Shown here: positions 7,336 through 62,429 of the stretch, in pieces
Numbering within the stretch: the first letter of the stretch is position 1
How the letters are laid out: every line of letters starts with the position of its first letter
Source: Rhodothermales bacterium
GTDB lineage: Bacteria; Bacteroidota; Rhodothermia; Rhodothermales; VXPQ01
Length of the DNA stretch: 64,000 nt
Assembly: GCA_951812335.1 (NCBI GenBank)
Contig: OX638293.1
Span: 700,501-764,500 of the forward strand
Reading direction: 5' to 3'
Position numbers and translations under genes: made by a program
The notes under the pieces: generated by a model
What the model saw: only the letters and a program-made list of their open reading frames with translations
What the model was told of the DNA's origin: nothing
Databases searched by the model: none

Positions 7336-7430
7336 GCGCGCCCGGTCAGTTTTTCCCGCTGATTTCAACGATGCAATTATCGCACGAACGCGAAGTGCTG
7401 ATCGAAGCGGTTTTGATCAGAGTGTCCTCA
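7336..7430 (+). repeat. MITE-like element, copy A (right-hand part only)
   Basis: Right end of the dispersed repeat family described at 62171-62429. It matches from the internal GATTTCAACGATGCAA segment through CGAAGTGCTGATCGAAG to the right inverted end TTGATCAGAGTGTCCT. The left part is missing or too diverged to recognise. It lies about 270 bases upstream of thyA. Confidence 0.75.
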
Positions 7431-36112: not shown

Positions 36113-36275
36113 ATTACACGGCCAGCGTACCCCTCGCAGCCTCCCGAAGGGCGCGTCGCGCCCGCACTGCCCGGAATCCACAGTGTTTCCGCTAATTCCG
36201 ACGATGCAATTACGGTATCCCTATACGCACGAACGTGAAGCGCCGGTCGAAGCGGTTTTGATCAGAGTATCCTTA
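36113..36275 (+). repeat. MITE-like element, copy B (left end missing)
   Basis: Aligns to the dispersed family from the ACGGCCAGCGTACCCCTCGCAGCCTCCCG block through GATGCAATTA and CGTGAAGCGCCGGTC to the right end TTGATCAGAGTATCCTT. The left end and first stem arm are absent. It lies just after ftsX; the rest of 36079-36395 has no gene. Confidence 0.85.
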
Positions 36276-37778: not shown

Positions 37779-37968
37779 AGGATACTCTGATTGAGTCCGC
37801 GAAGTTCAGAGGCTTGCGAGGGGTGCGCTGGCAAGGAATGACGAAGCAATGTGGCAGGCCCCACATAATGAGAAATGACGCAGCTAGCGTGCCCCTCGCA
37901 GCCTCCCGAAGGGCGCTTCACGTGCAAACGTGAAGTGCTGAGCGAAGCGGTTTTAGTCAGAGTATCCT
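37779..37968 (+). repeat. MITE-like element, copy C (internally shortened, both ends present)
   Basis: Inverted ends AGGATACTCTGATT and AGTCAGAGTATCCT bracket 190 bp. The first internal stem arm TTGCGAGGGGTGCGCTGGC pairs with GCTAGCGTGCCCCTCGCAG; the TGTGG/CCACA hairpin lies between. GCGCTTCACGT pairs with ACGTGAAGTGC across only four bases, so about 70 bp present in the long copies are deleted. Its right end contains the stop codon of pcm. Confidence 0.9.
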
Positions 37969-40408: not shown

Positions 40409-42025
40409 ATGTTTACCTGGTCCGGCGCAATCGGTGCCGATGTACACCATTCTCCAAATGCCGCTGCAAAACCGGCGGTTCGGCTTCCCTCACGAACGCT
40501 CGCGAAAGTGGAAGGGTTTTTAAAGGACCCGGTGCATGTGCAGCATACCCTGTTGCGAAGCCTCTTGCAGCAGGCCGCCGGTACGGAGTGGGGCCGCCGG
40601 TACGGGTTCGGGGAGATCGCCCGCACCCGGGATGTGGTTGCAGCGTATCGGGCCCGCGTTCCGCTCCACACCTACGGCGACTTCGAGGAGGATATACGTC
40701 GTATCCGGGGCGGAGCGCAAGATGTTATATGGCCTGGCGCGTTCCGGCACTTCGCGGTATCGAGCGGGACGACATCCACCGGCAAGATCATCCCGGTGAG
40801 TCCGGAAATGCTTGCCGCGAATCGCCGCTTCACGCTTTCTGTCGGGATGACGTATTTGGCCCGGACGGGCAATGTCGGGTACCTGCTGGGCAAGCATGTT
40901 GCGCTTCCCGGTCGCATTGAAGAGGATCCGGCTTATCCCGGCATGAAGATTGGAGAGGTGAGTGGGCTTCAGGCGGCACATGTGCCTTTTTTGTACCGGC
41001 ATATTCTTCAGGCTGTCCCCAACGAATTAGCCTTTCTGCCGAATTGGGAAGAAAAGTTGCGTGCGGTCGCCCGACGGACCGTAGGCATGGACGTGCGGTG
41101 TCTGATTATGGTCCCATCATGGTCTATGGTTTTTTTCGACGAACTCATCCGGCAGCATCGGGAGCGGTTCGGTTCCGACGCCAAAACGGTCGCCGACGTA
41201 TGGCCCCGGTTGCGGGTATTCATTGCGGGGGGCGTAGCGCTGAGTTCCTATCGGGAATTGCTCCGGGAAAAGATCGCCTTGCCGAAACTACAGTTTTTGG
41301 AGGTGTATGGCGCCTCGGAAGGATTTTTTTCCTTTCAGGACGACGCGAACGATCCGGCCATGCTCCTGCACCTCGACAACGGCGTGTTTTTCGAATTTGT
41401 CCGGATGGACGAGATCGATAATCCGAATGCGCGTCGATATACGGTCGGCGAGGTGGAAACCGATGTGCGGTACGGACTTTTCGTTTCCACATGCAGCGGA
41501 CTCTGGGGTTACCCTGTCGGGGATATCGTGCGTTTTACGGATACCTCTCCGCATAAAATCTTTGTGGCGGGGCGTACGAACGAGATGATAGACAAGTACG
41601 GAGAGGCCGTTTTCAGCGAGGAAGCCCGCCATGCGTTGCGCGTTGCCTGCGAGCGTACGGGTGCGCAGGTGCGTGATTTTCATGTTGCTCCGAATCCCCC
41701 GGCAACGGACCGCTCCCCGTCCCACCAGTGGCTGGTGGAATTCGAACGGGCGCCGGACAGCATGGATCGTTTTTCGAACGAAATAGACGATTACCTCAAC
41801 GAGTTTAACCGGCATTACCGGATTCGCCGCGAGGCACGGGCGTTCGAGCGGCCCGAGGTATTGGCGCTGCCTCCCGGTACGTTTCATGCGTGGCTCCGGG
41901 AAACGCGGAAGCAGGTGAGCGGTCAAACCAAAGTGCCGCGCATGTGCGAGCATCGCGAGATCGCCGACGCCGTGATCGCTTTGCTCAAGGACACTCCGAT
42001 TAAGTCCGCAAAGCTCAGAGGCTGA
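40409..42025 (+). CDS. GH3-family acyl-acid-amido synthetase-like protein
   Basis: 538-residue adenylate-forming enzyme homologous to plant GH3 (auxin/jasmonate amido synthetases). Conserved features include RVPLHTYGDFEEDIRRI, the ATP loop AVSSGTTSTGKIIPVS, the LEVYGASEGFFSFQ motif and FTDTSPHKIFVAGRTNEMIDKYGEAV. From MFTWSGAIG the N-terminus is family-like; an apparent extension to 39353 lies within folP/cdaA antisense and is not real. Bacterial GH3 proteins are common in Bacteroidota but their substrates are not established. The last residues (DTPIKSAKLRG) and stop are encoded by repeat copy D. Confidence 0.88.
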   Translation: MFTWSGAIGADVHHSPNAAAKPAVRLPSRTLAKVEGFLKDPVHVQHTLLRSLLQQAAGTEWGRRYGFGEIARTRDVVAAYRARVPLHTYGDFEEDIRRIRGGAQDVIWPGAFRHFAVSSGTTSTGKIIPVSPEMLAANRRFTLSVGMTYLARTGNVGYLLGKHVALPGRIEEDPAYPGMKIGEVSGLQAAHVPFLYRHILQAVPNELAFLPNWEEKLRAVARRTVGMDVRCLIMVPSWSMVFFDELIRQHRERFGSDAKTVADVWPRLRVFIAGGVALSSYRELLREKIALPKLQFLEVYGASEGFFSFQDDANDPAMLLHLDNGVFFEFVRMDEIDNPNARRYTVGEVETDVRYGLFVSTCSGLWGYPVGDIVRFTDTSPHKIFVAGRTNEMIDKYGEAVFSEEARHALRVACERTGAQVRDFHVAPNPPATDRSPSHQWLVEFERAPDSMDRFSNEIDDYLNEFNRHYRIRREARAFERPEVLALPPGTFHAWLRETRKQVSGQTKVPRMCEHREIADAVIALLKDTPIKSAKLRG

Positions 42026-42239
42026 AAGGAGTGCGCTGGCAAGGAATGACGAAGCAGTGTGGCAGGCCCCACACAATGAGGAATGACACGGCCAGCGTGC
42101 TCCTCTCTGCCTCCCGAAGGGCGCTTCACGCCGCATTGCCCCGCATCCACAGCGTTGATGATTTCAACAATGGAATCGTGACATCCTTTACGCACGAAAG
42201 TGAAGTGCTGAGCGAAGTGGATTTGATCAGAGTGTCCTT
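41987..42239 (+). repeat. MITE-like element, copy D (full length)
   Basis: 253 bp with inverted ends AAGGACACTCCGATTAA and TTGATCAGAGTGTCCTT; note GACACTC/GAGTGTC at both ends where other copies have GATACTC/GAGTATC. First stem GGAGTGCGCTGGC/GCCAGCGTGCTCC shows a change matched on both arms. It overlaps the last 13 codons of the GH3 gene and supplies their stop. The remaining sequence to 42510 has no gene; a small ATGCG-TCTTT-CGCAT hairpin is near 42312. Confidence 0.92.
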
Positions 42240-43898: not shown

Positions 43899-43957
43899 AG
43901 GATACGCTGATTAAGTCCGCAAAGCGCCGGTCGAAGCGGTTTTGATCAGCGTATCCT
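43899..43957 (+). repeat. MITE-like element, copy E (minimal, 59 bp)
   Basis: Only the two ends are left: AGGATACGCTGATTAAGTCC and GGTTTTGATCAGCGTATCCT, joined through CGCAAAGCGCCGGTCGAAGC. The G in ACGCTG is mirrored by C in CAGCGT at the other end, unlike all other copies. Located about 100 bases upstream of purL. Confidence 0.9.
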
Positions 43958-49505: not shown

Positions 49506-49579
49506 CGGGCGTAGTATGCACTATCGAAGTGCGTGGCGGATACGGTGCGCAGAATGACCGGGAAAAACGTAGCGCGGGC

Positions 49580-49625
49580 GCCCCTCTCAGCCTCTGAACT
49601 TCGCGGACTTAATCAGAGTATCCTA
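49580..49625 (-). repeat. MITE-like element, copy F (left end only, reversed)
   Basis: On the minus strand it reads AGGATACTCTGATTAA followed by the GTCCGCGAAGTTCAG and AGGCTGAGAGGGGCG blocks, the left 45 bp of the family. The rest is missing. It lies between the divergent proline dehydrogenase and pdxH genes. Confidence 0.85.
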
Positions 49626-53715: not shown

Positions 53716-53735
53716 TTTAGCACCCTGCCGTCCAC

Positions 53736-53814
53736 CTGCCACACTGCTTCGTCATTCCTTGCCAGCGCACCCCTCTCAGCCTCTGAGCTTTGAGGACGTA
53801 ATCAGAGTATCCTA
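53736..53814 (-). repeat. MITE-like element, copy H (left part, reversed)
   Basis: On the minus strand: AGGATACTCTGATTACGTCC, then GCTCAGAGGCTGAGAGGGG, GCGCTGGCAAGGAATGACG and AGCAGTGTGGCAGG, i.e. the left 79 bp of the family. The right part is missing. It lies between katG and a DinB remnant, and a GATTTAG/CTAAATC inverted pair (53714-53720, 53812-53818) frames it. Confidence 0.85.
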
Positions 53815-62170: not shown

Positions 62171-62429
62171 AAGGATACTCTGATTAAATCCGCAAAGTTC
62201 AGAGGCTGAAAGGGGTGCGCTGGCAAGGAATGACGAAGCAATGTGGCAGGCCCCACATAATGAGGAATGACACAGCCAGCGTGCCCCTCTCTGCCTCCCG
62301 AAGGGCGCTTCACGCCCGCCGACGCCCGGAATCTGCGGTGTTTTCCACTAATTTCAATGATGCAAATACAATATCTTTTACGCACGAGCGTGAAGCGCTG
62401 GTCAAAGTGGATTTGATCAGAGTATCCTT
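62171..62429 (+). repeat. MITE-like structured element, copy G (full length, reference copy)
   Basis: 259 bp. Ends AAGGATACTCTGATTAA (62171-62187) and TTGATCAGAGTATCCTT (62413-62429) form an inverted repeat with one mismatch. Inside are GGGGTGCGCTGGC (about 62212) pairing with GCCAGCGTGCCCC (about 62275), a TGTGG/CCACA hairpin between them, and GCGCTTCACGC pairing with GCGTGAAGCGC near the right end. No open frame of a transposase. Its right end overlaps the stop codon of the large protein to its right, and its left end abuts the cupin start. Confidence 0.93.

Follow-up and report, generated by a model that had tools for sequence, protein, structure and literature searches.

The window analysed here, a 64,000-nt stretch of a Rhodothermales bacterium genome, carries several copies of a small repeat, among which the 190-nt copy C (37779..37968, + strand) lies between convergent genes and overlaps the last bases of the downstream gene. 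Copy C represents a subtype of the element without the variable middle. It begins with a left terminal inverted repeat (TIR; 37779..37800, +) and ends with a right one (37947..37968, +), which was located by the paired-copy search; the two form the TIR helix, and the partner bases 37779 and 37968 are better assigned to the target site. Between them, also on the + strand, lie two arms, P1 and P3, which the first-pass annotation had called stem 1 and stem 3. The 5' and 3' arms of P1 (37809..37832 and 37883..37905) follow from the consensus fold and covariation. They enclose the 5' strand of an internal core, AAGGAATGACGAAGCA (37833..37848; consensus positions 54-69), a small TGTGG/CCACA hairpin (37850..37865, arms 37850-37854/37861-37865) that was read from the sequence and has covarying pairs, and the 3' strand of the core (37870..37882), which is GAGAAATGACGCA in copy C and GAGGAATGACGCA in the family. 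The 5' and 3' arms of P3 (37913..37923 and 37928..37938) were identified from the sequence and from covariation. Two further copies are of the full-length type, copy D (251 nt; 41988..42238, +), which is identical at the same site in the congeneric genome G004, and copy G (257 nt; 62172..62428, +). A 59-nt relic (43899..43957, +) has kept both TIRs and lost most of its interior. The partial copies comprise a 3' part with the right TIR (36113..36273, +; repeat families D2-D4), a right end (7351..7428, +; repeat families D2 and D3) and two 5' ends on the - strand (49578..49624, I3 and I5; 53735..53814, I1, I2 and I7).

The genome holds about 200 copies of this gene-less mobile element, whose consensus is about 256 nt long. 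The TIR pattern AGGATACTCTGATYAARNCCGC, with up to three mismatches, gave 421 matches in the 2.69-Mb single-contig genome, compared with none for the reversed control pattern. Among the first 153 paired copies that were pulled, 112 measured 240-263 nt and 16 measured 180-199 nt; this sample was drawn from stretches of the genome and is hence partial. Distinct subfamilies are present, e.g., one with AGGATGC..GCATCCT. The core motif AGGAATGACG also occurs at 31 sites beyond the called elements, and each of the 15 listed lies within a partial or uncalled copy. In a DNA search, the element was present in all five congeners and absent from all 24 genomes of other genera, and a covariance model built on P1 plus the core gave hits in six of the 114 genomes from the order that were searched, every one of them in the element's own genus. 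A pattern scan of genome contigs gave matches in at least the Rhodothermales MAGs of congeners, including OX638295.1. In G001, G002 and G005, many short-read contigs start or stop within a copy, i.e., the repeat fragments these assemblies. The phage collection and viral contigs that were searched contained no match to the element. With Rfam 15, a tRNA was the sole match over the window, and nothing was reported around copies C and D up to E = 5. The antisense frames through positions 1-146 had no synonymous excess and thus no coding signal.

The repeat is a non-autonomous IS5-family MITE, and it was filed as such because it shares its TIRs with IS5 remnants, has empty sites and is flanked by a 4-bp target duplication. 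In G004, three degraded DDE_Tnp_1 genes end in the TIR of the element, one of which (L187) is flanked by it on both sides, and the IS5 remnants bear AGGATACTCTGATY-type ends. An intact homologue from another family of the order, with similar ends, is 68% identical to the L184 fragment and is an IS5-family transposase (NCBIfam NF033581, 336 bits). Apart from the TIRs, the element has no convincing similarity to the IS5 remnants in its interior; L184 does contain a strong match, but this comes from a second copy of the element that adjoins the IS. An intact IS5 transposase with matching ends was not found in G004, G001 or G000, where only degraded pieces were seen, the one in G000 being a short remnant. 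We infer that the element was mobilised in the past by an IS5-family transposase; as this transposase survives in the genus only in pieces (L180, L184 and L187 in G004; L193 in G000), the element may no longer move. A search for an IS630-type origin found no DDE_3 transposase in the six genomes of the genus. A 1.9-kb candidate for an autonomous form in G004 (L062:7904-9832) was also rejected: instead of a transposase, its lone TIR and its half element flank two ORFs of metabolic genes, one phosphate-synthase-like and the other alcohol-dehydrogenase-like.

Filled and empty sites align cleanly across congeners in many cases. An exact 4-bp target duplication was found in 26% of the full-length copies compared with 9.5% in shuffled flanks (z about 7), and it was non-palindromic in nine cases; TTAA is the commonest, followed by TATA and TAAA. 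We favour a 4-bp duplication around an element that spans GG to CC, which superseded our first reading of a 2-bp TA duplication. The terminal pair was therefore removed from the fold. Because the target is often palindromic, the outermost base frequently complements its partner for a reason that has nothing to do with folding, and this outermost ‘covarying’ pair belongs to the target site. These ends also bear on the suggestion of the first-pass annotation that the folded strand might be the excised DNA strand. An element that moves as an excised single strand, like IS200/IS605 or REP/RAYT, would use its fold for excision, and REPINs, which are likewise hairpin-forming and present in many copies per genome, rely on RAYT, move as excised hairpins and commonly have compensatory hairpin changes (PMC3116915). 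Such a form of movement is, however, extremely improbable for the present element given its long TIRs of the IS5 transposase type, its duplicated target and the absence of a Y1 (HUH) transposase domain (PF01797) from G000 and G004, for which control genomes were positive.

The consensus fold, which was derived from 110-163 copies using covariation-aware scoring, consists of the TIR stem and two arms, P1, with the core and the small hairpin, and P3. The folding energy of copy C is -110.3 kcal/mol (z -11.5) on the + strand and -84.4 kcal/mol (z -6.7) on the opposite strand, and that of copy G is -116.5 kcal/mol (z -8.0). The first-pass annotation had described paired base changes between copies C, D and G, and most of its readings hold. 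In stem 1, copy D has GGAG..CTCC and copy G has GGGG..CCCC, both read and aligned, and the TGTGG/CCACA hairpin is nested in this stem. In stem 3, GCGCTTCACGC/GCGTGAAGCGC in G corresponds to GCGCTTCACGT/ACGTGAAGTGC in C; the change from C-G to T-A is matched, while that from G-C to G.T is one-sided. For the extension of stem 1, the sequences were given correctly (TTGCGAGG/CCTCGCAG in C and TGAAAGG/CCTCTCTG in G), but they are not a matched double change: the extension is paired with one bulged T in C and has A.C and T.T mismatches in G, which amounts to a gain or loss of pairing.

In the covariation alignment of 110 distinct copies, standard pairs made up 94.8% of the paired cells of the whole structure. 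Thirty-one of the 74 pairs were altered on both sides (shuffled mean 15.2), with 197 double-change cells compared with 64 in shuffled alignments; the interior alone had 155, compared with 59.8 when columns were shuffled and 20-40 when partners were slid. The covariation score of 0.145-0.150 fell to 0.03-0.06 when the partners were slid by 1-3 columns. Ranking every column pair by covariation, with the terminal pair left out, put structural pairs in each of the first five places (0.012 expected). On the tree, both partners changed in 70 branch-pair cases, 59 of which ended paired, compared with 8-16 cases for slid partners. When the substitutions were relocated to same-base sites within their domain, stability was lost by 14.4 kcal/mol on the + strand and 12.6 kcal/mol on the - strand. 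The claim that the matched changes are more than sequence relics is thus borne out by the shuffled and slid controls, the tree cases and the stability gain. The check on aligned copies that had been proposed came out in two ways, as these controls were exceeded and our own R-scape-like, tree-based null gave no pair below E = 0.05, its tail being heavier than the data and too broad. Because the two sides of the stems change together far above chance, we hold with moderate confidence that the hairpin fold has been preserved as the family spread. Spurious covariation could arise if many copies had inherited the patterns of a few subfamilies and gene conversion had mixed them, which we consider very improbable here. 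Clear subfamilies do exist, the tree null was not beaten, and the site of copy C is occupied in G004 (L057:9219-9475) by a different, 257-nt paralogue in the opposite orientation, as element exchange would give; the slid partners, however, share the same relatedness and linkage and yielded far fewer double changes and far lower scores. The site of copy C is empty in G003, G005, G001 and G002, and the paralogues of opposite orientation might reflect an exchange through the inverted ends.

The positions of the copies also bear on what the fold might do. Of 117 copies placed, three lie inside an ORF call, one lies at the edge of one and the others are intergenic. In the spacers, 24 copies in tandem arrangements are sense and 37 antisense, 21 are between convergent and 31 between divergent genes, with no clear preference. 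Turnover between genomes is high: 21 copies in G000 (15 full-length and six short) have an empty partner site in G004, and 12 copies in G004 have an empty partner site in G000. The 11 full-length copies shared by both differ at 17 of 2727 positions (0.6%), while their adjacent flanks differ at 154 of 2174 (7.1%), and at L043, L048 and L054 the first flank differences occur 0-12 nt from the element on both sides. This low divergence of the shared copies could reflect either constraint or recent exchange. It would be expected if each resident copy were a host RNA element, such as a terminator, an mRNA stabiliser or a small RNA, under local purifying selection. Such domestication is, however, unlikely: presence is highly variable between G000 and G004, other shared sites carry deletion relics, orientation and gene arrangement follow no preference, and recent exchange between lineages could also account for the identity at some sites. 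Moreover, after G000 and G004 diverged, the shared copies have changed at 9 of 1326 paired and 7 of 881 unpaired positions, a comparison that is based on few events and leaves out two pairs inside near-identical blocks. Changes were therefore equally frequent at unpaired positions, the outcome that the first-pass annotation had named as speaking against a selected fold, at these shared sites.

The least variable part of the element is internal. The mean minor-allele frequency is 0.018 in the 5' core strand, 0.045 and 0.094 in the two TIRs and 0.196 in the variable middle. On visual inspection, the opposed core strands show G.A/A.G steps between standard pairs. We consider it doubtful, though worth stating, that the interior works as a genuine module of structured RNA, with a G.A-rich core that is bound, as RNA, by a host protein or the transposase and on which the spread or tolerance of the family depends; were that so, this would be a DNA transposon with an RNA-level function. 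The core strands repeat AGGAATGACG in direct orientation, with the two occurrences in each element at a distance of about 37 nt, and so could also be a site in double-stranded DNA. The direct repeat and the palindromic arms would then bind the transposase or a host protein, with the fold as a by-product. Such a site would agree with the low variability of the 5' core copy and with a stability gain on both strands; it predicts conserved sequence, however, whereas the stems change their sequence and keep their pairing, and it does not explain a G.U bias that is strand-specific. We therefore regard a purely DNA-level role as improbable.

This bias was counted as events. Changes from Watson-Crick pairs to G.U outnumbered those to A.C by 191 to 126, which is only slightly above the 241 to 195 counted where identical base changes affected unpaired sites. 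The G.U changes fell more often on internal branches (50 of 187) than the A.C changes (19 of 124), which indicates that G.U persists longer (Fisher p = 0.018; every p value given here is optimistic, as the copies are related), and the equivalent changes at unpaired sites differed little in this respect (86 of 241 and 64 of 195). The + strand had the more stable fold in 89 of 110 copies. The raw cell counts of G.U and A.C in the TIR stem (367 and 55) were discarded as strong strand evidence, because they consist mostly of ancestral G.U pairs and the event counts shrink the signal. Together, the strand biases modestly favour a fold of the sense strand.

Our preferred explanation, which we hold with no more than middling confidence, is that of an IS5-type MITE with matched stem changes whose fold is filtered during spread, most likely through a sense-strand RNA. 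The transcribed sense strand would most likely fold into a compact RNA, copies that keep the fold would leave more descendants, and the fold would thereby be filtered as the family spreads. Against a role of the sense strand stands the nearly equal stability gain on the opposite strand, and the explanation is further weakened by the lack of a gene-orientation preference, the equal change at paired and unpaired positions of the shared copies and the unbeaten tree null. A different origin of the matched changes is mutational: a nascent strand that switches template within a hairpin copies one arm onto the other, a mechanism described for RNA genes that can yield matched changes (PMC8794818) and involves no selection for a fold. 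Because several double changes are without intermediates, template switching is a serious rival, and we consider it a real, if lesser, possibility. Many double changes fall on the same branch, some of them of the transversion type or lacking intermediates (pairs 138/222, T-A to G-C; 38/119, C-G to A-T; 71/86; 6/251), and both strands show the gain of stability. Template switching does not, however, explain the persistence of G.U over A.C, the larger gain on the + strand or the 5' core strand, which is nearly invariant and mostly forms no standard pairs with the bases opposite. Under the preferred explanation of a filtered fold, template switching in the hairpin probably supplies part of the double changes, which selection would then retain. 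The proposal of the first-pass annotation that a folded single strand is under selection thus gains from the covariation and the modest sense-strand bias; these do not amount to proof, since the opposite strand gains nearly as much stability and template switching could also yield matched changes.

The element represents a new family within a known type; less usual are a covariation that has been put to the test and a conserved core in the interior. In Porphyromonas gingivalis, BrickBuilt and other IS5-related MITEs also have IS5-matching TIRs and predicted stem-loops, and the authors mentioned possible compensatory mutations (PMC4596501); compared by description rather than by sequence, BrickBuilt is built on an internal minisatellite, whereas the present element has a unique interior of P1, core and P3. 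The Correia elements of Neisseria are similarly small, folding, intergenic MITEs, and RNase III cuts the transcripts that contain them at the TIRs (PMC10969869); they belong to a different host lineage, and the present element has no Rfam match. BOX, RUP and SPRITE of pneumococcus (PMC3049150) and ERIC (PMC10969869) are high-copy, folding, intergenic repeats as well, some of which are expressed together with neighbouring genes (PMC3049150, PMC10969869), whereas the genomes searched contain the present family in one genus only, and its TIRs link it to the IS5 family. With the IS5-family insertion sequences (NF033581), it shares the TIR and a short AT-rich target duplication, but it lacks a transposase gene, and between its TIRs it is not related to the IS remnants. 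Folding MITEs are common and the importance of their fold is rarely tested. With about 200 copies here and many in congeners, the family offers natural data with which to set selection on a folded strand against arm-to-arm template switching, and it singles out an internal core, not the ends, as the least variable part.

Some individual copies deserve mention. At L221:1831-2089, L228:1205-1462, L044:743-998 and other sites compared with G004, a full-length copy in one species corresponds to a stretch of 31-126 nt in the other. Relics of 39 nt (L041:13396-13434, L053:718-756, L061:10372-10410 and L114:11295-11333) resemble, by eye, deletions between CTGA repeats at the hairpin base. A cluster of tandem and partial copies is found at L017 (G000, ~1184172-1184702). 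Three copies shared by G000 and G004 are identical, namely, copy D in the window (0/251), L022:4838-5092 (0/255) and L047:152-396 (0/245), with flanks that differ by 8-19%. Immediately to the right of the last of these lies a TGTTTCACGTGAAACA palindrome that resembles a ParB parS site.
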